Shown here piece by piece: positions 2,194 through 61,833 of a stretch of DNA of 64,000 nt (the first letter of the stretch is position 1; the number at the start of each line of letters is the position of its first letter). Position numbers and translations under genes: made by a program. The notes under the pieces were generated by a model. That model was not told the origin of the DNA. It was given only the letters and a program-made list of their open reading frames with translations, and did not search any database. Source of the stretch: Ferribacterium limneticum (lineage in GTDB: Bacteria; Pseudomonadota; Gammaproteobacteria; Burkholderiales; Rhodocyclaceae); contig NZ_CP075189.1 in the NCBI RefSeq assembly GCF_020510565.1, forward strand, positions 1,472,501 through 1,536,500, written 5' to 3'.

Positions 2194-2862
2194 CTACCGC
2201 AAAGTAATGATTTTCCAGCCCATTTGACTGGCATGGGCGTGCAGCTTTTCGTCCGGATCGACGGCCACCGGCGTCTTGACCTTACCCATCAGCGGCAGGT
2301 CGTTGTGCGAGTCGCTGTAGAAATAACTGTCGGCGAAGCTGCCCCACCACAGGCCGAGCGATTCGAGCCAGGCTTCGACGCGTTCGATCTTGCCTTCGCG
2401 GAAGGACGGTGTGCCGCTGGGCGATCCTGAAAATCGGCCATTTTCCGGGTTGACCGCAGGAATGGTGCCGATCAGGTGCGGAATGCCGAATTCGCGGCAA
2501 ATGGCGCCGGTGACGAAGCTGTTGGTGGCGGTGACGATGGCGCACAAGTCGCCAGCATCGAGATGGCTCTTGACCAAGGCGCGGGACGGCTGGCCGATGA
2601 TTGGCAGGATGTGGCGGGCCATGTATTCGCGGTGCCAGGCATCGAGTTCTTCCCGCGAATGACGGGTCAGCGGGGCGAGCTGGAAATTCAGGAATTCGTA
2701 GATGTCGAGCGTGCCGGCCTTGTATTGCTCGTAGAACTGGATGTTCTTGGCTTCCTGCAACTCGCGGTCGACGACGCCTTTGCTGATCAGGAATTGCGCC
2801 CACTCAAAGTCGGAGTCGCCGGTGAGCAGGGTGTTGTCGAGGTCGAAGAGGGCAAGATTCAT
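2194..2862 (-). CDS. HAD-IB family phosphatase (SerB/CicA-like)
   Basis: 222-aa haloacid dehalogenase-type hydrolase. The nucleophile motif LFDLDNTLL is at residues 5-13, motif II lies around IVTATNSF and motif III/IV around YFYSDSHNDLPLM near residue 185. This is the HAD-IB subclass, which includes phosphoserine phosphatase and CicA; the natural substrate cannot be told from sequence. It overlaps hda by 4 bp, so it is probably translated with it. A copy of the window-wide repeat lies inside the gene (2430-2464) and on this strand encodes AVNPENGRF. Confidence 0.85.
   Translation of the reverse strand: MNLALFDLDNTLLTGDSDFEWAQFLISKGVVDRELQEAKNIQFYEQYKAGTLDIYEFLNFQLAPLTRHSREELDAWHREYMARHILPIIGQPSRALVKSHLDAGDLCAIVTATNSFVTGAICREFGIPHLIGTIPAVNPENGRFSGSPSGTPSFREGKIERVEAWLESLGLWWGSFADSYFYSDSHNDLPLMGKVKTPVAVDPDEKLHAHASQMGWKIITLR
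2430..2464 (+). repeat. Dispersed repeat copy, in the HAD phosphatase gene
   Basis: The AT-rich half is AAAATCGGCCATTTT and the core is CCGGGTTGACCGCAGG, which carries one extra G and one mismatch. It lies antisense to the HAD gene and is translated as VNPEN, as in the mutL and sigma-factor antisense copies. Confidence 0.75.
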
Positions 2863-3512
2863 GCGTTGGCTTCCTGGTTGAGCAGTTCGCGCAGCAGCGG
2901 CAGGGTGACGGCGCGTTTTTGTTCCAGCGTGTATTGGTCGAGGGCGACGATGATGGCCGATAGCCTGCGCATGTCGCGCGGGGCGTGGCGCATCAGGTAG
3001 TCGATGATTTCCGGCGTCAGCTTGAGGGCGCGCTCTTTGGCCTGGGTGGCCAGGGCTTCGGCCTTTTCGGCGTCGGACAGCGGTTGCAGGCGGCAGATCA
3101 GGCCGGAGCCGAGGCGGGTGCGCAGGTCTTCGCGCAGCGTGAGGTGAGCCGGCGGCTGCGCGGCTGCGGTCAACAGCATTCCGAAGGCCATTTTGAGGCG
3201 GTTGAAATGATTGAAGAGGGCGATCTGGCCAGTTTCGTCAAGCATTTCAACGTGATCGACAGCCAGTTGCTCCGCAGTTGGGGCTGATTTCAGTGCCGGG
3301 TCGAGGGCCGCGTCGATATAGGCAAAGCCGCTTGCCTGCAGCAAATGCGAGCATCCCGAGCCGGCTTCTCCCCACAGGCAGAATGACGTGTCGGTGCGTG
3401 TTCCGGCCAGCCATTCGGTGAGCAGGGCCAGCGTTTGAGCATTTCCACCAGCGACGAAGTTATCCAGGGTGGGCGAGCTTTCGGGCAGCAAATCGAGAAT
3501 CAGCTGGCGCAT
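2859..3512 (-). CDS. hda: DnaA regulatory inactivator Hda / DnaA-homologous AAA+ protein
   Basis: 217-aa protein with a single DnaA-type AAA+ domain and no DNA-binding domain IV, as expected for Hda. With the beta clamp, Hda stimulates ATP hydrolysis by DnaA to prevent re-initiation. The N-terminal RQLILDLL resembles the clamp-binding QL(S/P)LPL motif. The Walker A region LWGEAGSGCSHLLQA has Cys in place of the catalytic Lys; E. coli Hda is also degenerate here. Heads the hda-HAD-pcnB-folK-DUF486 unit, whose genes overlap or lie close together. Confidence 0.85.
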   Translation of the reverse strand: MRQLILDLLPESSPTLDNFVAGGNAQTLALLTEWLAGTRTDTSFCLWGEAGSGCSHLLQASGFAYIDAALDPALKSAPTAEQLAVDHVEMLDETGQIALFNHFNRLKMAFGMLLTAAAQPPAHLTLREDLRTRLGSGLICRLQPLSDAEKAEALATQAKERALKLTPEIIDYLMRHAPRDMRRLSAIIVALDQYTLEQKRAVTLPLLRELLNQEANA

Positions 3513-3625
3513 CGGGATAGCGAAAGGGAATGGGGCCGAAATTCTAGCATTGCTGCCGACGACAGCGCCGATTTAGACCGGCGCCGGCGTTCTCGAAGTC
3601 TGCTTTTTCAGCCAGTCCCGGGTTT

Positions 3626-3937
3626 TTATACCGAAGCGCGGGCCAGGATGGCCGCTAGCCGCGGGTAGTAGCCGGTTCGGCTGACCCTGAGGTGGTGTTC
3701 CATTTCGAGCGATTCGGCGGTGTTGCGGGCCGAGGGGGAGCGGCTGAGCAGGTCCGGGAAGGCGTCTGGAGCATCGACCACGGTAAAGATGCTCGTCAGC
3801 AAGCGAGCGCATGCCTGGTAATAAGCCGGATCCAGTCGAACAAATTTTGCGCCGTTGTCGCAGGCATCAAGGTAGGCGGCCGCTGTTGTCGAGGTTTCGG
3901 CAAGCGACCTGATCTGGCTGGGGCTTAAATAGGTCAT
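3626..3937 (-). CDS. Hypothetical protein (103 aa)
   Basis: The family is not recognised. It is a small, soluble, alpha-helical-looking protein with no signal peptide or membrane segment (MTYLSPSQIRS... to ILARASV). A good Shine-Dalgarno (AAGGAGA) lies just before the ATG, supporting a real gene. A short inverted repeat (TACCGG/CCGGTA, 3962-3983) sits upstream and could be an operator. Monocistronic, between hda and tyrS. Confidence 0.6.
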   Translation of the reverse strand: MTYLSPSQIRSLAETSTTAAAYLDACDNGAKFVRLDPAYYQACARLLTSIFTVVDAPDAFPDLLSRSPSARNTAESLEMEHHLRVSRTGYYPRLAAILARASV

Positions 3938-4065
3938 GGCGCATCTCCTTCGGTAACTCTCTACCGGAAAATCTACCCGGTAAATTCATTAACGTCCGGA
4001 AATGCTTCACGTTTAGTGCATTTACGCGCTGTAACACTTTGGTTCAGCGCGAGTACAAACGCCGG

Positions 4066-5340
<1,275 letters not shown>

Positions 5341-5437
5341 TGCTTTTTCTCCACGGAACAGCGCCGCCGGCGCCGGAAATTCGAACCGGCGATTTTAGCA
5401 GAGCGCCATCTCTGCACGGCGTGCGGACGGCTGAATG

Positions 5438-5481
5438 GGATTTCGATTTTGGGCGAAATTTCCGGTTGACCGTAGCGATTC
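5438..5481 (+). repeat. Dispersed repeat copy between tyrS and the poly-Asn gene
   Basis: Full-length copy: TTTCGATTTTGGGCGAAATT followed by TCCGGTTGACCGTAGC. Intergenic, just downstream of the stop codon of the minus-strand poly-Asn gene. Confidence 0.9.
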
Positions 5482-5494
5482 CTCAGCTAAGGGC

Positions 5495-5962
5495 TCAACC
5501 GTTGTTATTATTATTGTTGTTATTGTTATTATTGTTATTATTGTTATTATTGTTGTTGCTGAATCCGAGTTCGAATGTCGGCTTTGCCGCAGCCGCCTCC
5601 GCGCTGCCGGGCAGGTTGAGGAGCAGGGCGGCGGTGCCCAGCATGACCAGTTTGCCGCTGCCGGCGTAGCTGTTGGCGTCGATTTCCGAGAGTTTCTTGT
5701 GGTTGCACCAGACAGCATGTTGCCGACTGGCGGTGGGAACGGGAATGGTGTCGATGGCGCTGCTATCTTCCTTTCCGGCATGGCAGAAGATGTTGCCATC
5801 GCTATAGACGGCGTAGCCCGTTTTGTTTTTCGGACGGCTTAGCCACTTGACCAGCCGTTCCTCGATTTCAGTGCGTCCCCGTCCGTCGTCCAGGCGCAGG
5901 GCGTTGAGAAAACATTCGACGGTGTAGGCAGTGCGGGCGAGTTCGTCGGGGGCCATGATCAA
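5495..5962 (-). CDS. Poly-asparagine-tailed protein, candidate radical SAM substrate
   Basis: 155-aa protein of unrecognised family. The first 95 residues form a soluble region with three cysteines (near residues 18, 60 and 86). Next come a hydrophobic segment (LVMLGTAALLLNLPG) and an Ala-rich stretch, then the end: FELGFS, nineteen consecutive Asn and a terminal Gly. The Asn run is written with mixed AAT/AAC codons. The start overlaps the upstream radical SAM/SPASM gene by 4 bp, so the two are co-translated. That context suggests a peptide-modification precursor or partner whose C-terminal tail is the target. This is inference; a microsatellite expansion of an otherwise ordinary tail is the alternative. 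Confidence 0.7.
   Translation of the reverse strand: MIMAPDELARTAYTVECFLNALRLDDGRGRTEIEERLVKWLSRPKNKTGYAVYSDGNIFCHAGKEDSSAIDTIPVPTASRQHAVWCNHKKLSEIDANSYAGSGKLVMLGTAALLLNLPGSAEAAAAKPTFELGFSNNNNNNNNNNNNNNNNNNNG
5515..5562. repeat. Trinucleotide (ATT/GTT) microsatellite encoding poly-Asn
   Basis: Plus-strand mixture of GTT and ATT triplets, read as AAC/AAT on the coding strand. The mix of two synonymous codons in an irregular order suggests the Asn run is kept at the protein level rather than being a fresh slippage product. Confidence 0.8.
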
Positions 5963-7764
5963 GCCTCGGTCAGGTAGTGAAACTCAAGGTTCTGGAAGGG
6001 CAGGTTGATGGCCTGCACATGGTAGAAGGCGTTCGCTTTCTGTTTCTGATAATGGTAGTCGCGCAAGTAGCCGGTGGTCACCAGCAGGTTGTTGCGCACG
6101 CCACGCTGGAACAGCGGTGCATGCAGGGCGAGGAGCGGGGCGAGGTCGAGCATGGCCCAGTCGTCGCCGAGCGGGCTGTCGCTCAGGCAGTTGGCGAAGC
6201 GCTGGTAGGTAAACAGGTGCTCCTGCTTGCTGCGCTGCTCGTCGCCGTACACCACCGGCGTGTCGCGCAACACTTGCAGGTAGACCGTGTTGCGCACGGG
6301 CTCCGTGCAGGCAACGGCGAATAGCTCGCGGCGCAGGTGCAGGCGAATCTGGTCGCCCGGCAGCAAGGTGTGGCAATCGGCGCGGGCGCGCAGGATTTGC
6401 GATTCCAGCGCCAGCCATTCATCGTTGAGTTCGAGTCGCCAGGCGTCGGCCCGATAGAGTTCGACCAGGATAGGGTCAGCGGCAATCAGTGCGCGCAGTC
6501 CGTTCTTGGCGTCGACCAGATCGCTGGGCAGGACGAGCGCAGCGGGGGCAGGCGGTGGCGGTGGCTCGGCGATGGCCAGCCCGGGGTGGGCGCGGGCGAT
6601 GTAGTGGCGGGCGTAGGCGGCCTGTTCGTCGCCGGCGAGCGCCGGGAAGCGCTGCGGGTAATCGCGGTAGAGCGCCTTCTGCAACTGGCAGGTATAGGAC
6701 TTGGCGTGTTGCCGCTGGAATTTGACCACGGCACAGCCGCTGTGACATTGCGCCAGATGGCCGCAGGCGCGGCAGTCGTTGGCCAGGCCGAATTGCTGAT
6801 GGATGGTGGCGATCTTGCGGGCGCCGGTGGCGAGGATGGTGTCGACGCTATCGGTGAACACGTTGCCGTAGTGGAATTCCGGCAGGCCCTGGCCGCGCAC
6901 GCAGGAATAGACGTTGCCGTCGCTCTGCAGCAGGTAGAAGCGTTCGCCGCAATTGATGGCGTTGGTGCAATAGCTCGGGGTGAATTCGTCAAACCAGTTC
7001 CGGCGCAAGCCCTCCTCCAGTTCAGTGCCGGCGAAGGCAGCATTGAGGGCGTCGTAGAGCGCCAACTGGGTTGCCTCGTCGGCCGGCGCCAGCGGATTGC
7101 CTCGGGCGGCGGTGTTGAGCGCCGAGGGAAAGGCGAACATCAGGTTCATCTGGTTCATGTCGAAACCGAGGTCGCGGTGGATGTACCAGATGTCGTCAAT
7201 CAGCGCCGGCAGGTCAGCCAGATGTTCGGCGGCCAGCGTCGCCGAAATTTTCTTGGCGTGCGGGTAGGCGGCAAGGCGGCGCAGGTTGTCGCAGGCCAGA
7301 TCGCGCCAACCCTTGCCGCCCAGGGTGCGGCGATGCTCTTCATGCAGCTTCAGCGGGAGATCGATGGAGGCGCTGATCGATACCTTGTGGCGGTCGAACA
7401 GGTCGTAGAGCGGTGCGAATTTGTAGAGATTGGTCTTGATGTGTGGCGCCAGCTTCTTGTGGCCGAGCGCGGAAATCGCATCGAAATGCTTGAGGTAATG
7501 CGCTCGAACCATGCTGAACAGTTCATCGAGTACGGCTGGCGGCAGCGTCGTCACTTCGCCGCCGTGCAGCGATACGTTGAAGGCCAGCACGCCGGCCTCG
7601 TCGAGTGCCGTCAGCGCGTGACGCAGCGTGGATACGGCGCGTGCGCTGTCTTCCTTGAGTTTCGCCTCGGTCGTCTGCGTGCCCAGGTAGCAGTAGCTGC
7701 AGCCCAGGTTGCAGGCCAGGGTTGGCACGTAGAGGAGGTGGACGGGACGGCTCGGCGCGTTCAT
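5959..7764 (-). CDS. Radical SAM/SPASM peptide-modifying enzyme
   Basis: 601-aa enzyme. The radical SAM CxxxCxxC motif (CNLGCSYC) is at residues 18-25. A SPASM-type cysteine cluster follows between about 265 and 350: CTNAINCG, SDGNVYSCVRG, then CRACGHLAQCHSGC. The roughly 250 residues after that match no domain I recognise. SPASM enzymes modify ribosomal peptides, and this gene is coupled to the poly-Asn protein and close to a small membrane protein, so a dedicated RiPP-like or protein-maturation system is likely. The exact repeat core GGTTGACCGT overlaps the start-codon region (7765-7774). Confidence 0.85.
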   Translation of the reverse strand: MNAPSRPVHLLYVPTLACNLGCSYCYLGTQTTEAKLKEDSARAVSTLRHALTALDEAGVLAFNVSLHGGEVTTLPPAVLDELFSMVRAHYLKHFDAISALGHKKLAPHIKTNLYKFAPLYDLFDRHKVSISASIDLPLKLHEEHRRTLGGKGWRDLACDNLRRLAAYPHAKKISATLAAEHLADLPALIDDIWYIHRDLGFDMNQMNLMFAFPSALNTAARGNPLAPADEATQLALYDALNAAFAGTELEEGLRRNWFDEFTPSYCTNAINCGERFYLLQSDGNVYSCVRGQGLPEFHYGNVFTDSVDTILATGARKIATIHQQFGLANDCRACGHLAQCHSGCAVVKFQRQHAKSYTCQLQKALYRDYPQRFPALAGDEQAAYARHYIARAHPGLAIAEPPPPPAPAALVLPSDLVDAKNGLRALIAADPILVELYRADAWRLELNDEWLALESQILRARADCHTLLPGDQIRLHLRRELFAVACTEPVRNTVYLQVLRDTPVVYGDEQRSKQEHLFTYQRFANCLSDSPLGDDWAMLDLAPLLALHAPLFQRGVRNNLLVTTGYLRDYHYQKQKANAFYHVQAINLPFQNLEFHYLTEA

Positions 7765-7774
7765 GGTTGACCGT
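7765..7774 (+). repeat. Core-only copy of the dispersed repeat at the radical SAM gene start
   Basis: Exact GGTTGACCGT directly against the start codon of the minus-strand radical SAM gene. The AT-rich half is absent, so this is either a core-only copy or chance. Confidence 0.4.
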
Positions 7775-7784
7775 GCTCGCCTGC

Positions 7785-8252
7785 CTAGGTGAACTCTGCT
7801 GCAGGCGACGCCCGGCGCACGCGTTCGGTTAAATGCTTGGCGACCTTGTCGAACTTGGCTGCCTTGTTGCGGGCAATCTTGTCGGTCTTGCGCGCATTGG
7901 TGGGGAACTTGTCGCGTTCAAGTAGGAGTCGGTTGCCGTCGGCACAAATCAGGTGGAGCTTGCCGGCGCTATCGTCGCGTTCGATACGCACCACATTGGC
8001 GAAATAGACGATCTGACCACCACAAATCAGGTAACGGGCATTCACCAGAAGCTTTTTGCGCGTGACCAACAGAATGATCACGCTGAGCACGAAAAGGAAA
8101 ATGGCCAACGGCCAAATCTGCCTGGCGAGCAGGCTGGCGCCGAAAAAACCGGCGGCAAACCAGTACTGAAGCCTGCTGCGACAACCAGGGCCCTTGTAGT
8201 CGTATTTCCAGGCGGCGAAACGCGATTCGTCCATATCGATTGAGCGTGGCAA
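7785..8252 (-). CDS. Hypothetical membrane protein upstream of radical SAM gene
   Basis: 155-aa protein with two adjacent membrane segments (about residues 30-65), a basic stop (TRKKLLVNAR) and a cytosolic C-terminal domain rich in Lys/Arg. The family is not recognised; the topology resembles small PH-like bacterial membrane proteins. It ends 20 bp before the radical SAM gene on the same strand and may belong to that unit. A start at the second Met (MDESRFAAW, near 8234) is also possible. Confidence 0.6.
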   Translation of the reverse strand: MPRSIDMDESRFAAWKYDYKGPGCRSRLQYWFAAGFFGASLLARQIWPLAIFLFVLSVIILLVTRKKLLVNARYLICGGQIVYFANVVRIERDDSAGKLHLICADGNRLLLERDKFPTNARKTDKIARNKAAKFDKVAKHLTERVRRASPAAEFT

Positions 8253-8354
8253 AACGAAGCCATGATAACGCCAGCCTTGAGGCGAAAGGTAACAGCATCA
8301 TGACAGGCGGTCATGCTGGCTCGCAGTCAAAGCCGGTTTGCGGCTGCTGCGGCA

Positions 8355-8400
8355 ATTTCGATTTTGGGCCAATTTTCCGGTTCACCGTGGGAATGCGCAT
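8355..8400 (+). repeat. Dispersed repeat copy upstream of purM
   Basis: ATTTCGATTTTGGGCCAATT followed by TTCCGGTTCACCGTGGG; one mismatch (C for G) in the core. It lies in the divergent gap between the 7785-8252 gene and purM. Confidence 0.85.
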
Positions 8401-8516
8401 TTTTGGCCGGCGGCTGGAATGGTGGGGTTGGCCGGCCGGTTAGGGGAGCTTGGCGGTTTCGGGTAAAATCGCTGTTTTTTCCAGCGGCCTTCGCCGCGCC
8501 TTGGCGCCTAAAGACC

Positions 8517-9549
<1,033 letters not shown>

Positions 9550-9560
<11 letters not shown>

Positions 9561-10176
9561 ATGGCCGTGGCGGGTCGCGGCGATGTTCGTCTGCGGCCTG
9601 TTCCTGCTGAATGTCTCGTCGACCGTCTGGGCGGCGAGCCAGAAGCCGTCACACAAGGCGGCTGCAACCAGACATGTCAAGAAGGCAGTGCGGCATTCGC
9701 CGCGCCAGGCCGAGTTGGCCCCCGCATTCGGGGCGGCCGATCTGCTCGAGGACGGCGTACCCGGCCTGCGCGGCCACGCCAGTTTTTACGGCCGGGGCTT
9801 TCAGGGCCGCAAGACGGCCACCGGCGAACGCTTTGACGTCAAGCAGTTCACCGCCGCCAGCAATCGCTTTCCGCTCGGTACCATGCTCGCGGTCAGGCGC
9901 ATCGACAACGACCGTTGCGCCATCGTCAAGGTCAATGACCGGATGCATCCGAAACACCGCAAACGCATCATCGACGTGTCGCGCGGTGTCGCCGAATACC
10001 TCAATATGGTTCGCGCCGGTGTCGTCTTCGTCAGTGTGGTGCCCTTGAAGAAGGGTTGGCAGGAGGGCGGTGCCGGCTCTTGTCAGGCGGCTTTCGAGCC
10101 GGAAACCGAACCGGGATGCGCGTCTTGCGGTCAACTACCGCAATTGCCTGAATTCCTGCCCAATATCGACGGCTGA
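9550..10176 (+). CDS. RlpA-like double-psi beta-barrel protein
   Basis: About 208-aa exported protein. After a signal peptide ([18 protein letters not shown]) comes the RlpA/DPBB core: [40 protein letters not shown] and [13 protein letters not shown]. RlpA proteins are septal lytic transglycosylases acting on denuded glycan strands; no SPOR domain is present, so septal localisation is uncertain. A TTG at 9550 gives a basic n-region (SKWPWR) before the hydrophobic core, whereas ATG at 9583 gives none, so 9550 is preferred though uncertain. It overlaps the end of purM. Confidence 0.75.
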
Positions 10177-10258
10177 TTTTGTTCTGCGATTTCAGCTGGT
10201 TCGTTACAATTCCGGCTATTGCTGACTGCCCGGTCAGTTCGAACCTTTGCCGAATGCC

Positions 10259-11410
10259 ATGAACAAAAATACCCGTTTCGGAATCATCGCCATCGCACTT
10301 GCTGGTATGGCTGGCCTGGGCTACTACGCCTACACCGCCAACCGCGCCCCGGCCGCCGGACCAGTCGCGCCGAACGGGGCTCCGGCCAAGCCGGCAGCAG
10401 GTGGAGCTCCGGCCAGCTTTCCGACGGCGGTGGAGGTGGCCCGGGTGGTGGCCAGCGATTTTGCTGATGATGTGGCCGCAGTCGGTACCCTGAAATCGAA
10501 CGAATCCGTCGTGCTGCGCCCCGAAATAGCCGGGCGCGTGGCCTCCATTGGTTTCAAGGATGGCGCCATCGTGGCCAAGGGAACGGTGCTGGTTGTCTTC
10601 GATGCAGCGATCCAGGACGCCGAATTGCTGCAGGCCCGGGCCAATCTGGCATTGGCCAAAAGCAGCTATGAGCGCAACGTTGAACTGGTCGGCAAGAAAT
10701 TCCTGAGCCAGCAGGCACTCGACAGCTCGTCAGCAACGCTCAAGGTGCAGGAGGCCGCCGTTCAGCTGGCCGAGGCCAAGGCCGCCAGGATGCGCATCAA
10801 GGCGCCATTCACCGGCATGGTCGGCCTGCGCAATGTCAGCGTCGGCGATTACCTCAAGGACGGTCAGGATCTCATCAACATCGAGGATGTCGCCACCTTG
10901 CGCGTCGATTTCAAGCTGCCGGAAAACTATCTCGGCCGCATCAGCAAGGGTCAGAGCGTCGAGGTGGTGAGCGATGCTCTGCCCAGCGAGCGCTTCAAGG
11001 CCGTGCTCGACGCCATTGACCCGCTGGTCGATCAGAACGGCCGCTCGATTTCAGCCCGCGCCCGGCTCGACAACGCCAAGGGCAAGCTGCGGCCCGGCAT
11101 GTTCGTTCGCGTTCGTCTACTCTTCGGCGAGCGCAAGGCCGTGCTCATGGTGCCCGAACAGGCCATCGTGCCGGGCGGTCACCCGGCGGTGTTCAAGGTG
11201 GTCGACGGCAAGGTCAGCCTGGTCAAGGTCAAGCTTGGGGTGCGGCGGACGGCGCAGGTTGAAGTCGTGGAAGGATTGGCGGCTGGCGATCTGGTCGTGA
11301 CGGCCGGCCAGTTGAAGCTGCGCGAAGGTGCTGCGGTGCGTCCGGTTGGTGAAGGCACGCCAGCTGCGGCGCCGCAGGCGGCGGTAGGCGGGACGGCGGC
11401 CGGCAAATGA
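10259..11410 (+). CDS. RND efflux periplasmic adaptor subunit (MFP family)
   Basis: 383-aa membrane fusion protein. The N-terminus anchors in the inner membrane (FGIIAIALAGMAGLGYYAY), followed by a Pro/Ala-rich linker, the lipoyl half motifs (RPEIAGRVASIGFKDGAIVAKG and APFTGMVGLRNVSVGDYL), a helical hairpin and a beta-barrel. It links the inner-membrane pump to an outer-membrane channel. Its stop overlaps the pump gene by ATGA. No TolC-type gene is nearby, so an unlinked channel is presumed. Confidence 0.9.
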   Translation: MNKNTRFGIIAIALAGMAGLGYYAYTANRAPAAGPVAPNGAPAKPAAGGAPASFPTAVEVARVVASDFADDVAAVGTLKSNESVVLRPEIAGRVASIGFKDGAIVAKGTVLVVFDAAIQDAELLQARANLALAKSSYERNVELVGKKFLSQQALDSSSATLKVQEAAVQLAEAKAARMRIKAPFTGMVGLRNVSVGDYLKDGQDLINIEDVATLRVDFKLPENYLGRISKGQSVEVVSDALPSERFKAVLDAIDPLVDQNGRSISARARLDNAKGKLRPGMFVRVRLLFGERKAVLMVPEQAIVPGGHPAVFKVVDGKVSLVKVKLGVRRTAQVEVVEGLAAGDLVVTAGQLKLREGAAVRPVGEGTPAAAPQAAVGGTAAGK

Positions 11411-14445: not shown

Positions 14446-14471
14446 CGGGCGGCCTCGCACGGCCGAGCGGA

Positions 14472-14514
14472 TATTTCGTTTTTTGGCGTTTTTTCCGGTT
14501 GACCGTAGCAGTCC
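14472..14514 (+). repeat. Dispersed repeat copy between RND pump and miaA
   Basis: TATTTCGTTTTTTGGCGTTT followed by TTTCCGGTTGACCGTAGC. It fills the 74-bp gap between two convergent genes and ends five bases before the miaA stop. Confidence 0.9.
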
Positions 14515-24270: not shown

Positions 24271-24313
24271 CTTTTCAATTTTGACCAAAATTTCCGGTTG
24301 ACCGTGAGAGTCC
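24271..24313 (+). repeat. Dispersed repeat copy between the DinB-like gene and the TIR operon
   Basis: CTTTTCAATTTTGACCAAAA followed by TTTCCGGTTGACCGTGAG. Intergenic, close to full consensus. Confidence 0.9.
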
Positions 24314-26585: not shown

Positions 26586-26630
26586 GGATTTCGTTTTTGG
26601 CCAATATTTCCGGTTGACCGTGGGATTGCA
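26586..26630 (+). repeat. Dispersed repeat copy downstream of the GGDEF-EAL gene
   Basis: GGATTTCGTTTTTGGCCAAT followed by ATTTCCGGTTGACCGTGGG. It lies in a 255-bp gap that otherwise shows nothing recognised. Confidence 0.9.
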
Positions 26631-29432: not shown

Positions 29433-31259
29433 TTATTGCCCGCGCAGAAACAGTTTGTCGAGATCGTTGAGTGACAGTTCCGTCCAGGTCGGTCGGCCGT
29501 GGTTGCATTGGCCGGCGCGTTCGGTCTCTTCCATCTGGCGAAGCAGGGCGTTCATTTCGGGGACGGTGAGCAGGCGGCGGGCGCGGACGGCGCCGTGGCA
29601 GGCCATGGTGGCGAGCAGTTCGTTGCGTCGGGCGGTGGCGAGCTGGGTGATGCCGTGTTCGCGCAGTTCGGCGATCAGCGATTTGGCCAGGGCGGCGGGG
29701 TCGCCGGATTGGAGCAGGGCGGGGACGGCACGCACGCCGAGTTGATTCGGGCCGAGCGGGGCGATCTGGAAGCCGAGATCGGCCAGCGCCTCGGCGTGTT
29801 CTTCGACGGCCGCGATGTCGAGCGGATCGGCCGAGAAGACGGCCGGGATGAGCAGCGCCTGCGTGGCGATCTGGCGGTTGTCAAAGGCGTTTTTGAGTTT
29901 TTCGTAGAGGATGCGCTCATGCGCCGCGTGCATGTCGATGAGGATCAGGCCGCGGGCGTTCTGGGCCAGGATGTAGATGCCGTGGAGCTGGGCGAGGGCG
30001 TAGCCGAGCGGCGGGCCGGCGCTGTCGGGCGGCGGGCTGTCAATGCCACGGTCAACCGGAAAATTGGGCTGAAATTGAAATGTCGTGGCCGGGCTGGCGG
30101 ACGATGGCGTGACCTGTTGCGCGGCGCGGGCGAAGGCGAGGTAGGCGGCAGCTGCCGGTTCGGCGACGCCGAGGCTGCCTTGATGACGGAGTGGCGGGGC
30201 GTATTCGAAATTTGGCCGATTTTCCGGGTTGACCGTGGAAGTCTCGCGTTCGACCAGCGCCGGGGCGGCTTCGGCCTGAACGGGCGCGGCCAGCGTGCGC
30301 TGGATGGCGTGGAAGACGAACTGGTGCATGGCGCGCGAATCGCGGAAGCGGACTTCGGTCTTGGCCGGATGCACATTGACGTCGACCAGCGCCGGGTCGA
30401 TGTTGACGAACAGGCAGACGGCTGGCTGGCGGCTGCCGTGCAGCACGTCGCGGTAGGCTTCGCGGAGGGCGTGGCTGATGATCTTGTCGCGCACGAAACG
30501 GCCGTTGACGAAGACGTACTGGCCGTCCTTGGCATCGGTGGCGCGCGTCGGGTCGATGGCGAAACCGACGATGGACAACGGTCCGGCGCCGGCATCGACA
30601 GCGCGGGCGGCGCCGAGGAAATCGTCGCCGAGGATGTCGGCAATGCGCCGCGGCGCATCGGCGGGGGCTAGCTGGAACAGGTTGCGGCCGTTGTGGGTCA
30701 GGCTGATCGCGACATCCGGCCGGGTCAGGGCCAAACGCCGTACGGCGTCGGCGCAGTGGGCAAATTCGGTGCTTTCCGACTTCAAAAACTTGCGGCGGGC
30801 CGGCGTGTTGAAATAGAGGTCGCGCATTTCGACGACGGTGCCGGCCATCAAGGCGGCCGGTTCGGGTTCCGCATCGGGCTCGCCTTTTAATTTCCAGGCA
30901 TGCGCCGCACCGCGTTCGCGGCTGGTAATGCTCAGCCGGGCAACAGAAGCCACCGAAGCCAGCGCCTCGCCACGAAAGCCAAGCGTGCCGACGCGCTCAA
31001 GGTCGTCGAGGCTGGAAATCTTCGACGTGGCATGCCGGGTCAGCGCCAGCGCCAGTTCATCTTTCGCAATGCCGCAACCATCGTCCGTGATGCGGATCAG
31101 CTTGACGCCGCCTTCCTCCAGATGCACCTGGATCGCCTTGCTGCCGGCGTCGAGACTGTTTTCGAGGAGTTCCTTGAGGACGGAGGCGGGTCTTTCAACC
31201 ACTTCGCCAGCGGCAATCTGGCTGATCAGCAGGTCGGGGAGGCGGGCAATAGTCGGCAT
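29433..31259 (-). CDS. mutL: DNA mismatch repair protein MutL (endonuclease type)
   Basis: 608-aa mismatch repair ATPase. The N-terminal GHKL domain has [28 protein letters not shown] and [12 protein letters not shown]. The C-terminal domain carries [14 protein letters not shown], which fits the DQHAxxExxxxE endonuclease motif, plus ACHGAVRA and CNHGRPTW, as in organisms without MutH. The variable linker (about residues 335-430) contains two copies of the window-wide repeat in opposite orientation, 160 bp apart, both kept in frame. The start at 31259 gives [11 protein letters not shown]. Confidence 0.96.
30041..30083 (-). repeat. Dispersed repeat copy 1 inside mutL (sense)
   Basis: Minus-strand reading is TTTCAATTTCAGCCCAATTT followed by TCCGGTTGACCGTGGC. 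In the MutL frame it encodes [14 protein letters not shown] in the interdomain linker. Confidence 0.9.
30201..30247 (+). repeat. Dispersed repeat copy 2 inside mutL (antisense)
   Basis: GTATTCGAAATTTGGCCGAT followed by TTTCCGGGTTGACCGTGGAA, with the extra G seen in other antisense coding copies. Read on the mutL strand it gives [14 protein letters not shown]. Confidence 0.9.
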
Positions 31260-31944: not shown

Positions 31945-32648
31945 TGCGCTGGCTGGCCGTCATCCTTGTGCTGGTGCTGGCGGCCTGTACGACGAAGATG
32001 GACAAGGCCGGCCGGACGGAATCCACGGTCGACCCGAAATATCTGCTCAAATCGGAAGTCGACCGCATCGCCGACACCAATCGTGCCGAGGTGGTCACTG
32101 GCCTGCTGCTGATCGCCGACAAGCTCTACAAGCGCAATCCGAAGGAATGGAAGAAGAGTGGCGCCGTGAGTCGTGAAGCGGCAGTCGAGCGCCTGCGCCA
32201 ACGCCAGTTCCGCAGCTGGCCGGAGTTCAGCGGTTTGCGCGAAGGCGCGGTGGCTTCGCTGGCCTTCACCGAGGTTTATGCCGGCGACCGCGTCATGGCG
32301 CTGATGTTCGGGCTGCTCGGCATGGTCGACGCTGCCTTCGAGCACAAGGACGAGTTCTACATCCTCGACAGCCTCAACGAAATGAAGCTCTACAACAGCG
32401 CCCGCAACATGGATATCGCCATCTGGAAGCTCGGCCACGACCGCAACGCGGCCGGCGAGCTCTTCCTGCTCTCGAACGAGCTCGACCCGGCCAACCGCAA
32501 CCTGTCGTACGAGCGCGAATTCGGCCGCGTCATGGGCCTGCTCGATTTCATGGCCAAGGTCGTTGCCGACCGCAATGGCCGCACTTTTTCCCGGCTGAGC
32601 CAGTCCGTGGCCAGCGCCATCTTTTTACCCGTGAGTTTTTTGAAATGA
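31944..32648 (+). CDS. Hypothetical lipoprotein
   Basis: 234 aa. A short signal peptide with lipobox (VLVLAACTT, Cys near residue 14) precedes a helical domain of about 215 residues with no recognised family (LREGAVASLAFTEVYAGDRVMALMFGLLGMVDAAFEHKDEF). It overlaps the DedA stop and the purN start, so it is co-translated with both, suggesting an envelope role. Confidence 0.75.
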   Translation: MRWLAVILVLVLAACTTKMDKAGRTESTVDPKYLLKSEVDRIADTNRAEVVTGLLLIADKLYKRNPKEWKKSGAVSREAAVERLRQRQFRSWPEFSGLREGAVASLAFTEVYAGDRVMALMFGLLGMVDAAFEHKDEFYILDSLNEMKLYNSARNMDIAIWKLGHDRNAAGELFLLSNELDPANRNLSYEREFGRVMGLLDFMAKVVADRNGRTFSRLSQSVASAIFLPVSFLK

Positions 32649-33298: not shown

Positions 33299-34252
33299 GT
33301 GCCGCTCGCCCTCGTCATCGCGCTCGCCGCTTCGCTCGGCATTCATGCCGCAGCGCTGTTCGGCACCGATGTCGAGATTTTCGGCGGGGTGGATGAGCCG
33401 GTTCCCCTGCGCGCCGAGTTGCAGCCGCCACCGCCGCCGGCGGCCGAACAGAAACCAGTCGTCAAACCCCGCCCGAAACCGGCCAAGCCAGCCCCTCTGG
33501 CCACCGCCAAGCCGTCGCCATCGGTCGAAACCGTGGCCCCGGCGGCGGAAACCAAGCCTTCCGAATTTGCCCCGAATTTGCCGTCGACCGTGGCAAAGCC
33601 GGCGCCGGAGCCGGCCAGGCCCCTGCTGCCGGCCAAAGGCCGCATGCGTTTCGTCATCTTCTACGGCACCCAGGGTTTTCAGATCGGCCGCGCCGAACAC
33701 AGTTGGGAATTCACCGAGGACGGCCGTTACCGGCTGACCGGCATGACCGAAACCATCGGCCTGGTCGCCCTCTTCAAGCCGCTCGTCTTCGAGAACGAAA
33801 GCAGCGGTAGGCTCGTTGCTGGCGGCCTGCAACCCGAAACCTACCGGACGCGCAAGAATGGTAAGGACGCCAACGAAAACGCCGATTTCGACTGGTCGAC
33901 CGCCGAAGTCCGCCTGTCGCGCAGCGGCGCCGTGCAGCCGATAACCACCGGTGCCCTGGACATCCTGTCGCTCAACTACCAGCTTGCCTACCTGCGCCAG
34001 CCGGAAGGCGGCACGACGGTCGGCGTCGTCACCGGCAAGAAATACGACCGTTTCGCCCTCGATTCACTGGGCGAAGAGGAAATCGACATCCCGGCCGGCC
34101 ATTTCCGCACCCTGCATCTGCGCGCCATGGGTGATACGGTGACCGAAATCTGGATTGCCCTCGACCGTCACCGCCTACCGGTTAAAATTCGCTACACCGA
34201 TAAAAAAGGCGACATTTTCGAGCAAGTCGCGACTGAAATAGGATCACCATGA
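33299..34252 (+). CDS. DUF3108 domain protein
   Basis: 317 aa beginning with a GTG. An N-terminal membrane/signal segment (LALVIALAASLGIHAAALFG) and a Pro/Ala/Lys-rich linker (about 35-115) precede the DUF3108 beta-rich domain (FVIFYGTQGFQIGRAEHSWEF... EIWIALDRHRLPVKIRYTDKKGD). Probably envelope-located; function unknown. A degenerate repeat-like stretch sits in the linker (33563-33600). It overlaps the methyltransferase gene by 4 bp. Confidence 0.85.
   Translation: MPLALVIALAASLGIHAAALFGTDVEIFGGVDEPVPLRAELQPPPPPAAEQKPVVKPRPKPAKPAPLATAKPSPSVETVAPAAETKPSEFAPNLPSTVAKPAPEPARPLLPAKGRMRFVIFYGTQGFQIGRAEHSWEFTEDGRYRLTGMTETIGLVALFKPLVFENESSGRLVAGGLQPETYRTRKNGKDANENADFDWSTAEVRLSRSGAVQPITTGALDILSLNYQLAYLRQPEGGTTVGVVTGKKYDRFALDSLGEEEIDIPAGHFRTLHLRAMGDTVTEIWIALDRHRLPVKIRYTDKKGDIFEQVATEIGSP
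33563..33600 (+). repeat. Degenerate dispersed-repeat-like stretch in the DUF3108 linker
   Basis: GAATTTGCCCCGAATTT followed by GCCGTCGACCGTGGCA. The core has the CGTCGACCGT variant also seen in soxD. Weak member. Confidence 0.4.
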
Positions 34253-37029: not shown

Positions 37030-37056
37030 AAATGGCGCGGGGTGAGCGCGCCATTT
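37030..37056 (+). terminator. Terminator after mscS
   Basis: Perfect 10-bp arms AAATGGCGCG/CGCGCCATTT around a 7-base loop. The T-rich run that follows is the start of the adjacent dispersed repeat. Confidence 0.7.
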
Positions 37057-37095
37057 CAATTTTGGTCAAAATTTCCGGTTGACCGTGGAAGTCTG
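37051..37095 (+). repeat. Dispersed repeat copy after mscS
   Basis: CCATTTCAATTTTGGTCAAA followed by ATTTCCGGTTGACCGTGGAA. It abuts the mscS terminator, so the AT half doubles as the terminator tail. Confidence 0.92.
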
Positions 37096-40278: not shown

Positions 40279-41117
40279 CAGGCGGCCTTTCGGGATGCTG
40301 CGGCCTGCAAACGGACAATTTGCTCGACTTCCACGGTCAACCGGAAAAAATCGGGAAAATTGAAATCGCGTTCCAGGCAGGTCGGCACCTCGCCGCCGAT
40401 GCGGGCGTAGGCGGCTTCGAGCAGCGACCACACCGGGTCGATGACATCGGCGCCGTGGGTGTCGATGAGCAGCCCGTCCGGCTCAACATAATGGCCGGCG
40501 ACATGGACGTAGCAGGTGCGTTCGAGCGGCAGGGCGTGCATGAAGGCGAGCGGGTCGAAGGCGAAATTTTGGCTGTTGACGTAGATGTTGTTGACGTCGA
40601 GATGGAGCAGGCAATCGGCTTCGCGGACGATGGCCGAGATGAATTCCGCCTCGCTCATCTCGGCGCCGGGCGGCGCGACGTAGTACGAGGCGTTTTCGAT
40701 GCCGATGCGCTGGCCGAGGATGTCCTGCGCCCGCTGGATGCGCTCGGCTGTCCATTTGACGGCGGCTTCGGTGAGCGGGATCGGCAGCAGGTCATAGAGC
40801 TGACGGTCGTCGGCGCACCACGACAGGTGTTCGGTGTAGAGGCTGATGCCGTGCTCGGCCATGAAGCTCTTGATGCGGCGGAGCAGCGCTTCGTCCAAAG
40901 GCCCTGGGCCGCCCAGCGAGAGAGACAGGCCGTGGCAGACGAAGGGGTAACGCTCGGTGAAATGGCGCAAATCCTTGGCCGAACTACCGCCCATCCCGGC
41001 CCAGTTTTCCGGGGCGATCTCGAAGAAGCGGATGGCGTCGGGAACGCCGGCCTTGAGCGGGGCGATCAGTTCGCGGCGAAAGCCGAGGCCGGCGCCGTGC
41101 GCATGGCGTGCTTGCAT
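40278..41117 (-). CDS. hvfB: MNIO (DUF692) peptide-modifying oxidase HvfB/BufB
   Basis: 279-aa TIM-barrel multinuclear non-heme iron oxidase. Metal-ligand regions FVCHGLSLSLGG, YTEHLSWCADD, IENASYYVAPPGAEMSE, HLDVNNIYVNSQN and HVAGHYVEPDGLLIDTHG are in order. In bufferin/Hvf systems this family turns precursor cysteines into thiooxazole/oxazolone-type groups that bind copper. Near the C-terminus the dispersed repeat supplies the residues DFNFPDFFRLTVEVEQ. Confidence 0.92.
   Translation of the reverse strand: MQARHAHGAGLGFRRELIAPLKAGVPDAIRFFEIAPENWAGMGGSSAKDLRHFTERYPFVCHGLSLSLGGPGPLDEALLRRIKSFMAEHGISLYTEHLSWCADDRQLYDLLPIPLTEAAVKWTAERIQRAQDILGQRIGIENASYYVAPPGAEMSEAEFISAIVREADCLLHLDVNNIYVNSQNFAFDPLAFMHALPLERTCYVHVAGHYVEPDGLLIDTHGADVIDPVWSLLEAAYARIGGEVPTCLERDFNFPDFFRLTVEVEQIVRLQAAASRKAA
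40328..40370 (-). repeat. Dispersed repeat copy inside hvfB (sense)
   Basis: Minus-strand reading GATTTCAATTTTCCCGATTT followed by TTTCCGGTTGACCGTGGAA; encodes DFNFPDFFRLTVEV near the HvfB C-terminus without breaking the frame. Confidence 0.92.
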
Positions 41118-41848: not shown

Positions 41849-42418
41849 ATGGCTTCTGACCCCTTGCACGACCCGGAGTTTCTCACAAGCCTGCGCCGCG
41901 ACATGCTGCGTTTCGCCGACATGCAGCTACGCAACCAGGCGCAGGCCGAAGATGCCGTGCAGGAAGCGCTGGCCGGTGCACTGGGCGGACGCGAAAAGTT
42001 CGCCTCGCGTTCATCGCTGCGCACCTGGGTGCTCTCCATCCTCAAAAACAAGATCGTCGATGTGCTGCGGGGCCGCGTTCGCGAGAATGCTACGGTCAAC
42101 CCGGAAAATGACGAAAATTTGCAAGGATATTTCAACGACCGCGAGCACTGGGCCGAAGACACCCGACCATCTGAATGGGAAACGCCGCAGCAGGCCATGG
42201 AAAACAAGCAGTTCTGGGAAGTCTTCGAGGCCTGCCTCTATCGCCTGCCGGAAGCCAGCGGACGTATCTTCACCATGCGCGAAGTGCTCGGTTTCGACAC
42301 CGACGAAATCTGCCAGACCCTGGGTATCACCACCAATAATTGCTGGGTACAACTGCACCGGGCACGGCTGGCCCTGCGCGCCTGCCTTGGCGCCAACTGG
42401 TTCGGCGAAGCGGCCTAG
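41849..42418 (+). CDS. ECF-type RNA polymerase sigma factor
   Basis: 189 aa with sigma-70 region 2 (DMLRFADMQLRNQAQAEDAVQEALAGAL) and region 4 (LPEASGRIFTMREVLGFDTDEICQTLGITTNNCWVQLHRARLALRA). The linker between them holds a repeat copy that encodes TVNPENDENLQ. Divergent from the zinc-finger/hvf operon, it is the obvious candidate regulator of hvfABC. Confidence 0.9.
   Translation: MASDPLHDPEFLTSLRRDMLRFADMQLRNQAQAEDAVQEALAGALGGREKFASRSSLRTWVLSILKNKIVDVLRGRVRENATVNPENDENLQGYFNDREHWAEDTRPSEWETPQQAMENKQFWEVFEACLYRLPEASGRIFTMREVLGFDTDEICQTLGITTNNCWVQLHRARLALRACLGANWFGEAA
42086..42126 (-). repeat. Dispersed repeat copy inside the ECF sigma gene
   Basis: Plus-strand reading GCTACGGTCAACCCGGAAAA with AT-rich sequence after it; the core runs opposite to the gene and carries the extra G. 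Translated as TVNPEN in the inter-domain linker. Confidence 0.85.
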
Positions 42419-47989: not shown

Positions 47990-48032
47990 CATTTCCACGG
48001 TCAACCGGAAAAATGGCCAAAATTTCAAGTCT
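47990..48032 (-). repeat. Dispersed repeat copy between the response regulator and dsbB
   Basis: Plus-strand reading is TTCCACGGTCAACCGGAAAA then ATGGCCAAAATTTCAAG. Nearly full consensus in a divergent promoter gap of about 150 bp. Confidence 0.92.
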
Positions 48033-52257: not shown

Positions 52258-52304
52258 ATTTTCAATTTTGGCCAAAATTTCCGGTTGACCGTGGGAACGG
52301 TCAA
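52258..52304 (+). repeat. Dispersed repeat copy between cytochrome c4 and fccB
   Basis: TTTCAATTTTGGCCAAAA followed by TTTCCGGTTGACCGTGGGAA; the best match to consensus in the window. It lies between two terminators of convergent genes. Confidence 0.95.
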
Positions 52305-55870: not shown

Positions 55871-56900
55871 ACCGCTTTTCGTTTTTGCCCTTTTTTCCGC
55901 GTCGACCGTAGCAATCGCCTTCGAGAACTATCAGGGCGTTGGCCGTCCGGCCACCTCGGCCGAAGTGAAGGCCTGGGACATCGACGTTCGCCCGGACTTC
56001 AAGGGCCTGCCCAAGGGATCGGGCAATGTCGAGCGCGGCAACGAGCTGTTCGAGGAAAAGTGCGCTTCCTGCCACGGTTCCTTTGGCGAGTCGAACGAAG
56101 TGTTCACGCCGCTGGCCGGCGGCACGACCAAGGACGACATCAAGACCGGCAATGTCCGCGGTCTGTCTTCTGGCGAACTGCCTCAGCGCACGACCTTCAC
56201 CAAGGTGGCGACGATTTCGACGGTCTTCGACTACATCCAGCGCGCCATGCCCTGGACGGCGCCGAAATCGCTGAAGCCGGACGAGGTTTACGCCATCCTG
56301 GCCTACCTGCTCAACTTGCAGGAGATTGTGCCCGCCGACTTCACGTTGTCCGACAAGAACATCGGCGAAGTCCAGAAGCTGCTGCCCAACCGCAACGGCA
56401 TGACGACCGATCACGGCATGTGGCCCGGTGCGCCAGCCAAGAAGGGTGGCATCGGCAACGGTGGCAAGCCCGATACGGCAAACAAGGCGTGCATGAAGAA
56501 CTGCAAGCCGGAAGTGCTGATCGGCTCGACCCTGCCGGAATACGCCCGGACGGCGCATGGCGAACTGCGTGATCAGAACCGTTCATTCGGTCCGGTCCGC
56601 GGTACCCAGACGCTCGGCCCCGAAGCCGCCAAGAAGGCAGCCGATGCCGGCACGCTGGATCTGGCGACGAAGAGCGGCTGCATGGCCTGTCACGGCATGA
56701 AGAGCAAGATTGTTGGCCCCGGCTACAACGAAGTTGTGGCCCGCTACAAGGATCAGACCGATGCCGAATCGCGCCTGATCGCCAAGGTCAAGGCCGGTGG
56801 GCAGGGCGTCTGGGGATCGATCCCGATGCCGCCGAACGGTCATATCAAGGACGAAGACATCAAGACACTGGTTCAGTGGATTCTGTCCGGTTCGAAGTAA
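55854..56900 (+). CDS. soxD: Sulfite dehydrogenase cytochrome subunit SoxD
   Basis: 348-aa diheme cytochrome with heme sites CASCHGSFG near residue 69 and CMACHGMKS near residue 283, plus a CMKNC pair. The signal peptide (FSKPLFVFALFSASTVAIAF) is largely written by a degenerate repeat copy. Overlaps soxC by 17 bp. Confidence 0.93.
   Translation: MFRFSKPLFVFALFSASTVAIAFENYQGVGRPATSAEVKAWDIDVRPDFKGLPKGSGNVERGNELFEEKCASCHGSFGESNEVFTPLAGGTTKDDIKTGNVRGLSSGELPQRTTFTKVATISTVFDYIQRAMPWTAPKSLKPDEVYAILAYLLNLQEIVPADFTLSDKNIGEVQKLLPNRNGMTTDHGMWPGAPAKKGGIGNGGKPDTANKACMKNCKPEVLIGSTLPEYARTAHGELRDQNRSFGPVRGTQTLGPEAAKKAADAGTLDLATKSGCMACHGMKSKIVGPGYNEVVARYKDQTDAESRLIAKVKAGGQGVWGSIPMPPNGHIKDEDIKTLVQWILSGSK
55875..55920 (+). 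repeat. Degenerate dispersed repeat in the soxD signal peptide
   Basis: GCTTTTCGTTTTTGCCCTTT followed by TTTCCGCGTCGACCGTAGCA. The AT half fits well and the core has two mismatches; encodes FVFALFSASTVAIA. Confidence 0.65.
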
Positions 56901-58637: not shown

Positions 58638-59285
58638 ATGAATTTCAAATTTGCCCTCTTTTTCGGGTTGACCGTGGCAATCGCAACGCCGGCCCTGGCT
58701 CAGAAAGCTGTTGAAGCACCCGGTGGCAAGTACGCCAAGGAAGCCGACCAGATGTTCCGCGCTTCGTTCAAGGCCGAGAATCCGAAATACTGGATGACTC
58801 GCCTCGAGCAGGACGAGACGATGAAGACCTGCCAGCAATTCCGCGACAACCCGCCGCGCAAGATCGGCGAAAAGCTCGAAAAGCTCAACGCCGCGACCAT
58901 CCGTTACCCGGTTGACGGCAAGCTGATCGGCGACTGGAAGGAAGGCGAGAAGCTCGCTGCCGTCGGCACTGGCGGTCACATCGGCTTCATCCAGCCGGAC
59001 AAGGCTGGCCGGGTCCGTGGTGGCAACTGCTATGCCTGCCACGAGCTGGCCAAGAAGGAAGTCGCTTACGGCACGATTGGCCCGAGCCTGCGCAATTTCG
59101 GCAAGATCCGCGGCAATTCCGAAGAGAACATCAAGTACGTCTACGACAAGATCTACAACTCCAACGCCTTCACGGCGTGCACCAACATGCCGCGCTTCGG
59201 CCTGCATAACTGGGTGACGCCGGAGCAGATCACCCACATCGTGGCTTTCCTGATCGATCCGGAATCGCCGGTTAACAAAGATTAG
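58638..59285 (+). CDS. soxX: Cytochrome subunit SoxX
   Basis: 215 aa with heme site CYACHELAK near residue 132 and a Met ligand region in ACTNMPRFG. The signal peptide MNFKFALFFGLTVAIATPA is almost entirely encoded by a dispersed-repeat copy. It is followed by a terminator-like hairpin that may lower soxB expression. Confidence 0.93.
   Translation: MNFKFALFFGLTVAIATPALAQKAVEAPGGKYAKEADQMFRASFKAENPKYWMTRLEQDETMKTCQQFRDNPPRKIGEKLEKLNAATIRYPVDGKLIGDWKEGEKLAAVGTGGHIGFIQPDKAGRVRGGNCYACHELAKKEVAYGTIGPSLRNFGKIRGNSEENIKYVYDKIYNSNAFTACTNMPRFGLHNWVTPEQITHIVAFLIDPESPVNKD
58640..58686 (+). repeat. Dispersed repeat copy forming the SoxX signal peptide
   Basis: GAATTTCAAATTTGCCCTCT followed by TTTTCGGGTTGACCGTGGCA. 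Exact core with an extra G; encodes the SoxX signal peptide from its second residue. Confidence 0.85.
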
Positions 59286-61110: not shown

Positions 61111-61721
61111 TGAAACTCCTGCCGAAACTATTTGCTGTTGCCGCGCTGGCCTTTGCCACGCAAACCTTCGCCGCCGACTGGGCGCCCGGTAGCACCGATT
61201 GGGACAAGCTGCCAGACGTCAAGAAGTCCAAGGTCGGCCTCTACCTGACGCCGCAGCAGGCCTACGACATGAAGAAAGCCAACCCGAAGGGCGTCGCCTT
61301 CTTCGACATCCGTACCCGGGCCGAAGCCATGTACGTCGGCTGGCCGAGCGATGCCGATGCGCTGGTGCCCTACGTCGAGCATCCCGAGTTGATGAGCGAC
61401 TGGGACGACAAACGCGCCATGTACAAGCTCGAGCCGAACCAGGATTTTGTGCCGGAACTGGAGCGTCGCCTGAAAGAAATGGGGCTCGGCAAGGACGCCA
61501 CGATCATCCTCGTCTGCCGCTCCGGCGACCGCAGCTCGAAGGCGCAGGATCGCCTGCAAACAGCCGGTTATACCAAGGTTTACGGGATTGCCGAAGGCGT
61601 CGAGGGCGATACCGCCAAGGAAGGTCCGAAAGCCGGCCAGCGCGTCGTCAATGGCTGGAAGAACGCCGGCCTGCCGTGGACCTACAAGCTCGACAAGGCG
61701 AAGATGTACTTCCCGCGCTGA
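61107..61721 (+). CDS. Periplasmic rhodanese-domain protein of the sox cluster
   Basis: 204 aa with a signal peptide (KLFAVAALAFATQTFAAD) and a rhodanese fold whose active loop is VCRSGDRSSKA. It is co-translated with soxB, so it probably shuttles sulfane sulfur with the Sox enzymes. Confidence 0.88.
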   Translation: MMKLLPKLFAVAALAFATQTFAADWAPGSTDWDKLPDVKKSKVGLYLTPQQAYDMKKANPKGVAFFDIRTRAEAMYVGWPSDADALVPYVEHPELMSDWDDKRAMYKLEPNQDFVPELERRLKEMGLGKDATIILVCRSGDRSSKAQDRLQTAGYTKVYGIAEGVEGDTAKEGPKAGQRVVNGWKNAGLPWTYKLDKAKMYFPR

Positions 61722-61742
61722 TCGTCAATCGGCGTTCAAAGA

Positions 61743-61769
61743 AATCCTCGCTGCGGCGGGGATTTTTTT
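61743..61769 (+). terminator. Terminator at the end of the sox operon
   Basis: AATCCTCGC/GCGGGGATT stem (one T-G pair) followed by a T run. A dispersed repeat copy comes just after it. Confidence 0.75.
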
Positions 61770-61788
61770 CGTCTGGCATTACGCGGCA

Positions 61789-61833
61789 TTTCATTTTTTG
61801 CCGTTTTTTCCGGTTGACCGTGGGATTGGGCGC
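61789..61833 (+). repeat. Dispersed repeat copy after the sox operon
   Basis: CATTTCATTTTTTGCCGTTT followed by TTTCCGGTTGACCGTGGG. It lies between convergent genes and touches the stop codon of the NifX-like gene. Confidence 0.92.

Follow-up and report, generated by a model that had tools for sequence, protein, structure and literature searches.

A dispersed 41-bp motif of Ferribacterium limneticum as a putative self-specific DNA-uptake sequence

The stretch of DNA analysed here, referred to as the window, comprises 64 kb of the genome of Ferribacterium limneticum (genome positions 1472501-1536500). The genome of the window is named G000, and its relatives carry handles of the same form. Scattered over the genes and intergenic gaps of the window is a short motif, which consists of the core GGTTGACCGT and an A/T-rich flank. 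Based on its numbers, its spread, its variation among relatives and the alignment of single copies, we favour the reading that the motif is a putative DNA-uptake sequence by which the organism would recognise DNA of its own kind.

Abundance and anatomy of the motif

The exact core was found 14 times in the window, counting both strands, whereas 100 dinucleotide shuffles contained 0.09 on average and 1 at most. With up to one mismatch 25 cores were present versus 3.1 in the shuffles. An A/T-rich flank accompanied 13 of the 14 exact cores, the exception being the core at 7765. The complete genome (4,150,051 bases, one contig) contained 581 cores, 293 in forward and 288 in reverse orientation, compared to 20 (8 and 12) for the reversed core used as control. 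Cores are thus 7.1 kb apart on average in the genome and 4.6 kb apart in the window. A first-pass annotation of the window had already described the 14 cores as far above chance and as lying in both orientations, and had named a genome-wide count near chance as a refutation. Such a count did not occur; the excess and the equal use of both strands hold for the whole genome.

The anatomy was analysed in a sample of 864 kb (the window and 40 stretches of 20 kb) containing 131 copies. According to the resulting position table the informative span reaches from -24 to +16 and is thus 41 bp long, slightly shorter than the 43 bp given in the first-pass annotation. The approximate consensus is ATTTCAWTTTTGGCC.WWTTTTCC-GGTTGACCGT-GGCAATC. 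Two T/A tracts at -8 to -3 and -18 to -14, about one helical turn apart and separated by a G/C spacer, were the conserved part of the flank, while the previously noted TTTTGGCCAAAA palindrome was no fixed feature. Setting the flank score such that 90% of the perfect copies were retained, we counted 117 perfect flanked cores, while 28 flanked cores had one mismatch, 9 two and 3 three. The single mismatches were confined to positions 1, 4, 5 and 10 of the core. Since the flanked cores were mostly perfect and the flank was variable, the motif combines a strict core with a flexible flank.

The window itself contained four copies with one mismatch and, as judged by eye, a flank (cores at 2448, 4349, 8379 and 32025) and a further two with two mismatches (at 33582 and 55900), in keeping with the three to five degenerate copies given in the first-pass annotation. 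Additionally, two close inverted pairs with core facing core were found in G000, at 3187405/3187424 and 3909403/3909420.

Dialects among relatives and distribution along the genome

The core of the window, here named dialect A, was searched in 249 genomes drawn evenly from the family, and a clear excess was present only within the genus of the window. Totals in the 67 other genera reached 22 at most, with controls of similar size. Judged by its named relatives, this genus is the Azonexus/Dechloromonas group. When named genomes were scanned with a 20-base form of the motif, at least 120 stretches matched; those listed were assigned to Azonexaceae, Azonexus, Dechloromonas, Rhodocyclaceae and less specific proteobacterial metagenome-assembled genomes. 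Also among the matches listed was a contig of a metagenome-assembled Desulfobacterales genome (L124), with the 20-base motif in a lineage beyond this group; the contig may be mis-binned.

Further forms were found by a k-mer screen of five relatives (60-420 kb each) and 37 kb of G062. GTYGACCGTG, often inside ACGGTCGACCGTG, was over-represented in G147, G240 having a related form; in G222 the over-represented string was GTYGACCGCAGCA. These forms, here named dialects B (ACGGTCGACCGTG) and C (GTYGACCGCAGCA), were searched in the genus of the window, represented by 76 genomes. Dialect A (TTTCCGGTTGACCGTNG) was present with 59 to 345 copies in 11 genomes and with 0 to 12 in the others. Dialect B reached 30 to 420 copies in four genomes, perfect palindromes being counted twice. 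For dialect C, 32 genomes held between 42 and 357 copies, and the total of the reversed control did not exceed 3. In total, 37 of the 76 genomes carried one or more dialects. The string common to all of them is just GTYGACCG, so that the near-palindrome CGGT-TG-ACCG of the first-pass annotation stands as the form of this species' dialect only. The distance between the distal A/T tract and GTYGACC varied by no more than one base among G000, G147 and G222.

Most species with dialect A retained C copies as well (79 in G000; 220 beside 124 A copies in G313), with few in G277 (21) and G286 (5). In the remaining 39 genomes not one of the three was numerous, and further dialects may be present. On a tree of one locus (1.34 kb, 16 genomes) the four dialect states required 5 changes versus 8.7 in shuffles, of which 0 of 200 were as low. 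The dialects are therefore clustered on this tree, although a single locus is weak evidence for their history. Stretches L206-L225 of G112 showed a different over-represented repeat, CGTCATTCCC / CGGGAATCCA, which is no dialect of the GTYGACCG family and which we take to be similar to repetitive extragenic palindromic (REP) elements.

To our knowledge, self-specific uptake sequences have so far been reported from two bacterial families only. The uptake signal sequence (USS) of the Pasteurellaceae, known in a Hin and an Apl type, likewise has a short strict core, two A/T-rich segments on one side and dialects, and the A/T tracts of the motif flank the core on the corresponding side. However, the segments of the USS sit closer to the core than the tracts of the Ferribacterium motif, which follow CGGT at about 8-13 and 19-24 bases. 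The motif also differs by its betaproteobacterial host and its sparser sites. The inner USS core GCGG is present in dialect C (TGCGGTC when reversed), whereas A and B have ACGG (ACGGTC versus GCGGTC). Dialect C reversed reads TGCTGCGGTCRAC and has TGCGGTCAA (R taken as A) in common with the extended Hin-USS AAAGTGCGGTCAATTTT as given in an excerpt of PMC12616744. When the cores were compared with extended USS strings, this run of nine bases was the longest identical one for C and was matched in length by 27 of 20,000 shuffles; A and B had runs of seven bases (326 and 502 of 20,000 shuffles). These figures are indicative, since the comparison was made after the likeness had been seen.

The DNA uptake sequence (DUS) of the Neisseriaceae is likewise betaproteobacterial and occurs in dialects. 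Excerpts of the literature describe eight DUS dialects that track phylogeny and a CTG core (PMC3630211), and a contiguous motif no longer than about 13 nt (PMC12616744). The consensus found here is different, with 41 bp, A/T tracts and no core in common. The cyanobacterial highly iterated palindrome HIP1 is a very abundant, dispersed, short GC palindrome without A/T tracts; the motif is likewise abundant, dispersed and short and is set apart by this description of HIP1.

Along the genome the strand counts were alike in both replichores (36/39 and 27/29; terminus at about 2.39 Mb by GC skew). The comparison with origin and terminus, which the first-pass annotation had proposed, thus revealed no polarity, and we rejected a strand or replichore role like that of FtsK-orienting polar sequences (KOPS) or Chi sites. 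Spacing was analysed over the first 1.3 Mb, which hold 195 copies. Neighbouring copies had the same orientation in 104 of 194 cases (permutation mean 96.7, p 0.16), and a clustering of orientations, to which for instance eight minus copies in a row at 886-898 kb had seemed to point, was therefore not significant. Gaps below 500 bp made up 1.5% versus 7.2% under an exponential distribution.

The first-pass annotation had considered, besides an uptake sequence, a site for nucleoid or segregation proteins. Such a chromosome-organising protein (a condensin loader, nucleoid spacer or similar) would bind about one site per 7 kb, and the dialects would reflect co-evolution. The even spread with close spacing avoided, the strict core with A/T flanks and the gain of copies by substitution described below would all agree with this. 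Nevertheless, we consider it unlikely, given the lack of polarity with respect to origin, terminus or strand, the near-control level of the A core in the 67 other genera and the identity of dialect C with the Haemophilus USS over nine bases. Moreover, 39 of 76 congeners without the three dialects in number would be odd for an essential chromosome function. The evidence rather favours the uptake sequence.

The motif was also scarce in DNA that looks recently acquired. Six sampled stretches with a GC content below 58% had 4 copies in 120 kb, compared to 127 copies in 744 kb for the other 35 (binomial p 6e-5, the 58% limit having been picked after the per-stretch table had been inspected). Furthermore, islands within the competence gene comEC of the A carriers G290 (43 kb) and G277 (34 kb) contained zero cores, where about 5.2 extended sites were expected from the genome counts (chance of zero 0.006).

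Placement and origin of the copies

The surroundings were classified for 129 copies that were retained by a lenient test of the flank (8/12 A/T positions), with gene calls from our own simple finder, which mis-called mutL. Fully coding were 46 copies. Of the intergenic ones, 35 had tandem, 19 convergent and 13 divergent genes as neighbours; a further 15 overlapped a gene end and 1 lay at the edge of a stretch. Random 40-mers were coding in 88% and between convergent genes in 0.5% of cases. The motif is thus strongly enriched between genes. Coding copies were nearly confined to three of the six frame and strand classes (20, 17 and 8 of 46). The copies of the window are listed in Table 1. Both copies in mutL fall between the domains DNA_mis_repair (residues 214-331) and MutL_C (430-570). 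Overall the placement looks like that of least cost, in intergenic gaps, signal peptides and protein linkers.

Table 1. Full and degenerate copies of the motif in the window and their surroundings
Copy	Position	Strand	Core	Surroundings
degenerate	2424..2464	+	GGTTGACCGC	inside HAD-family gene
degenerate	4325..4365	+	AGTTGACCGT	inside tyrosyl-tRNA synthetase gene on opposite strand
full	5440..5480	+		tandem genes either side
degenerate	8355..8395	+	GGTTCACCGT	intergenic by gene calls; a longer open reading frame start would cover the copy
full	14473..14513	+		convergent genes either side
full	24272..24312	+		5' end of gene with weak DinB_2 match, below Pfam's cut-off
full	26588..26628	+		tandem genes either side
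full	30041..30081	-		mutL, about residues 401-414
full	30203..30243	+		mutL, about residues 347-360
degenerate	32018..32058	-	GGTCGACCGT	inside called gene
degenerate	33558..33598	+	CGTCGACCGT	
full	37053..37093	+		convergent genes either side
full	40326..40366	-		MbnB/TglH/ChrH-family gene
full	42085..42125	-		sigma-70-family gene
full	47990..48030	-		divergent genes either side
full	52259..52299	+		convergent genes either side
degenerate	55876..55916	+	CGTCGACCGT	5' end of gene, signal-peptide-like in our reading
full	58642..58682	+		5' end of cytochrome c gene, signal-peptide-like in our reading
full	61788..61828	+		convergent genes either side

Enrichment between genes, convergent ones above all, together with the two inverted pairs, could also point to transcription signals, either the operator of a large regulon or intergenic terminators and RNA elements. 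This is rather improbable, since more than a third of the copies (46/129) are fully coding and just 13 lie between divergent genes. Those between tandem genes had no preferred direction by our count (18 with the genes and 17 against). A single copy has no hairpin followed by a T run, as read from the position table, and as no Rfam family reached its gathering score in the window the RNA element was rejected.

How copies arose was analysed by alignment of orthologous loci, as the first-pass annotation had suggested. For the copy at 40326..40366 all 13 aligned orthologues were gapless through the motif, and a codon gap in seven of them lies outside. Gapless through the motif were also 10 of 10 aligned orthologues at 42085..42125, where three further genomes gave no alignment and G062 and G201 had a 3-base insertion just beyond the low-coordinate end of the motif. 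At 58642..58682 all aligned genomes were gapless through the motif as well; a two-base gap precedes it in G303 and G062 and a 12-base gap follows in G062. Because orthologues lacking the motif align without gaps at these three coding copies, the motif was gained there by substitution and not by insertion.

In the near non-carriers G112 and G288, GGGTTGAGCCTG and GGGGTGACAGTA replace GGGTTGACCGTG at the core at 58666, from which we infer decayed or never-completed copies. At the core at 55900 the window reads GTCGACCGTAGCA, while G268, G290, G303 and G062 carry GTCGACCGCAGCA, one base separating the dialect types. The intergenic copies with cores at 52283 and 61812 were alignable among carriers only.

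REP elements are hairpins that spread with REP-associated tyrosine transposases (RAYT). The motif resembles them and the related bacterial interspersed mosaic elements (BIME) in being dispersed and rich in intergenic copies, but it occurs mostly as single copies and the three coding copies show no insertion. Spread by transposition as a mobile element or a repeat of the REP or miniature inverted-repeat (MITE) type, to which hundreds of dispersed copies in both orientations would conform, is highly improbable and was rejected for the three coding copies given their gapless orthologues, no search for a RAYT-type transposase having been made. It also disagrees with a core common to all copies beside a variable flank and with the two dialect types, one core base apart, at the same place. 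Identity to a known transposon or REP family with its own transposase, the other refuting result named in the first-pass annotation, was thereby addressed indirectly, through these three copies and the lack of any Rfam match in the window.

Some further features of the window were noted. A run of TTATTG/TTGTTA-type repeats (5502-5564) lies directly downstream of the first full copy. The region 39499-42418 comprises an MbnB/TglH/ChrH enzyme, a DUF2063 protein, a small open reading frame with three 33-base repeats and the sigma-70 gene; this gene set presumably resembles an operon for a bufferin-type metal-binding peptide. When window positions 1-20000 were compared with plasmids, 30 records matched in part, the most extensive one over 15% of the query, which was not informative.

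Competence genes and the favoured reading

Matches above the curated cut-off were found for ComEC in 68 and for ComEA in 67 of the 76 genomes of the genus. G000 has an uninterrupted open reading frame of 775 aa at the ComEC match, another of 250 aa with a signal-peptide-like start at the ComEA match, and 16 pilin-signal matches. A pilin standing alone in the position list was considered as receptor and rejected, as its neighbours mark it in our reading as a type II secretion pseudopilin.

In eight of the 76 genomes (G201, G249, G255, G277, G288, G290, G297 and G315) more than 20 kb of other DNA interrupted the ComEC match within a single contig. The splits recur at few model positions, near 145, 161 and 590. 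In our reading the island of G277 starts with a resolvase-like protein and that of G290 has transposase-like genes.

Taking the evidence together, we assign a probability of roughly 0.7 to the reading that the motif is a self-specific DNA-uptake sequence kept by biased transformation, in a third lineage beside those of USS and DUS. This reading is drawn from the sequence data and relies on the abundance of the motif, its strandless spread, the strict core with A/T tracts, the origin by substitution and the low-cost placement. Additionally, it is based on the depletion in foreign-looking DNA, the dialects, the near absence in close relatives, the presence of competence genes and the USS-like core of dialect C.

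The core (in USS orientation ACGGTCAACC) would be recognised by a DNA receptor on the surface, probably one of the minor pilins of a type IV pilus, and the two A/T tracts one turn apart would ease the bending of the DNA. Pilus, ComEA and ComEC would then draw the DNA in, and homologous recombination would swap out the resident allele. Entry would be more frequent for fragments that carry a good site, and such biased transformation would gain and keep sites, which would persist mostly where their cost is lowest. Once the specificity is changed or lost, sites would change dialect or decay.

Several findings weigh against this uptake-sequence reading. The density is 0.14 per kb and does not come close to one per kb, a value that is a property of the known cases and not a definition. 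With its genome of 1.8 Mb, H. influenzae has sites roughly six-fold denser. An excerpt of PMC7811141 gives 1,465 cores for H. influenzae and 1,892 for N. meningitidis. Three of the 11 A carriers (G268, G313 and G280, the latter 76% complete) had no ComEA match over the curated cut-off, and comEC is interrupted in the A carriers G290 and G277. Conversely, G112 has uninterrupted comEC and ComEA matches with only 6 extended A sites. Splits of comEC above 20 kb were no commoner in non-carriers (5/26) than in carriers (3/30; p 0.45), among genomes at least 90% complete with the match on one contig and states read by hand; smaller splits and pieces on separate contigs (G257, G258, G263, G265 and G300) were left out. 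A link between missing sites and broken comEC was therefore dropped.

Neither a receptor candidate linked to the dialects nor one like ComP of the DUS system was found among the pilins of four genomes and GspH of 16 genomes, and the GspH/FimT loci were at differing places among carriers. Sequence-specific surface receptors of the kind sought are ComP and the proposed ComN. Three viral contigs carried an 18-base pattern of the motif, L389 with the full and L388 with a partial A/T flank, which may stem from flanking host DNA, a prophage or an acquired site. Finally, our literature search found no report of natural transformation for the Azonexus/Dechloromonas group. It also yielded no earlier description of an uptake sequence or repeat in Rhodocyclaceae, Dechloromonas or Azonexus, an earlier account elsewhere being possible, and no uptake sequences outside the two known families, with the subscription literature mostly uncovered.

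More tentatively, the uptake signal of the genus might be homologous to the Haemophilus USS or have converged on it, as the commonest dialect has the inner core GCGGTCAA and phased A/T tracts. One receptor type may have carried the code into beta- and gammaproteobacterial lineages, with later shifts from GCGG to ACGG in the genus. We regard this as doubtful.

If the uptake-sequence reading is true, a third, environmental lineage would possess an uptake code, and natural transformation would be implied for the Azonexus/Dechloromonas group. With 37 of 76 genomes as carriers and close relatives nearly free of sites, the genus would offer a natural experiment on the origin, change and disappearance of uptake codes, and would allow testing whether such a code is adaptive or a by-product of a biased receptor.

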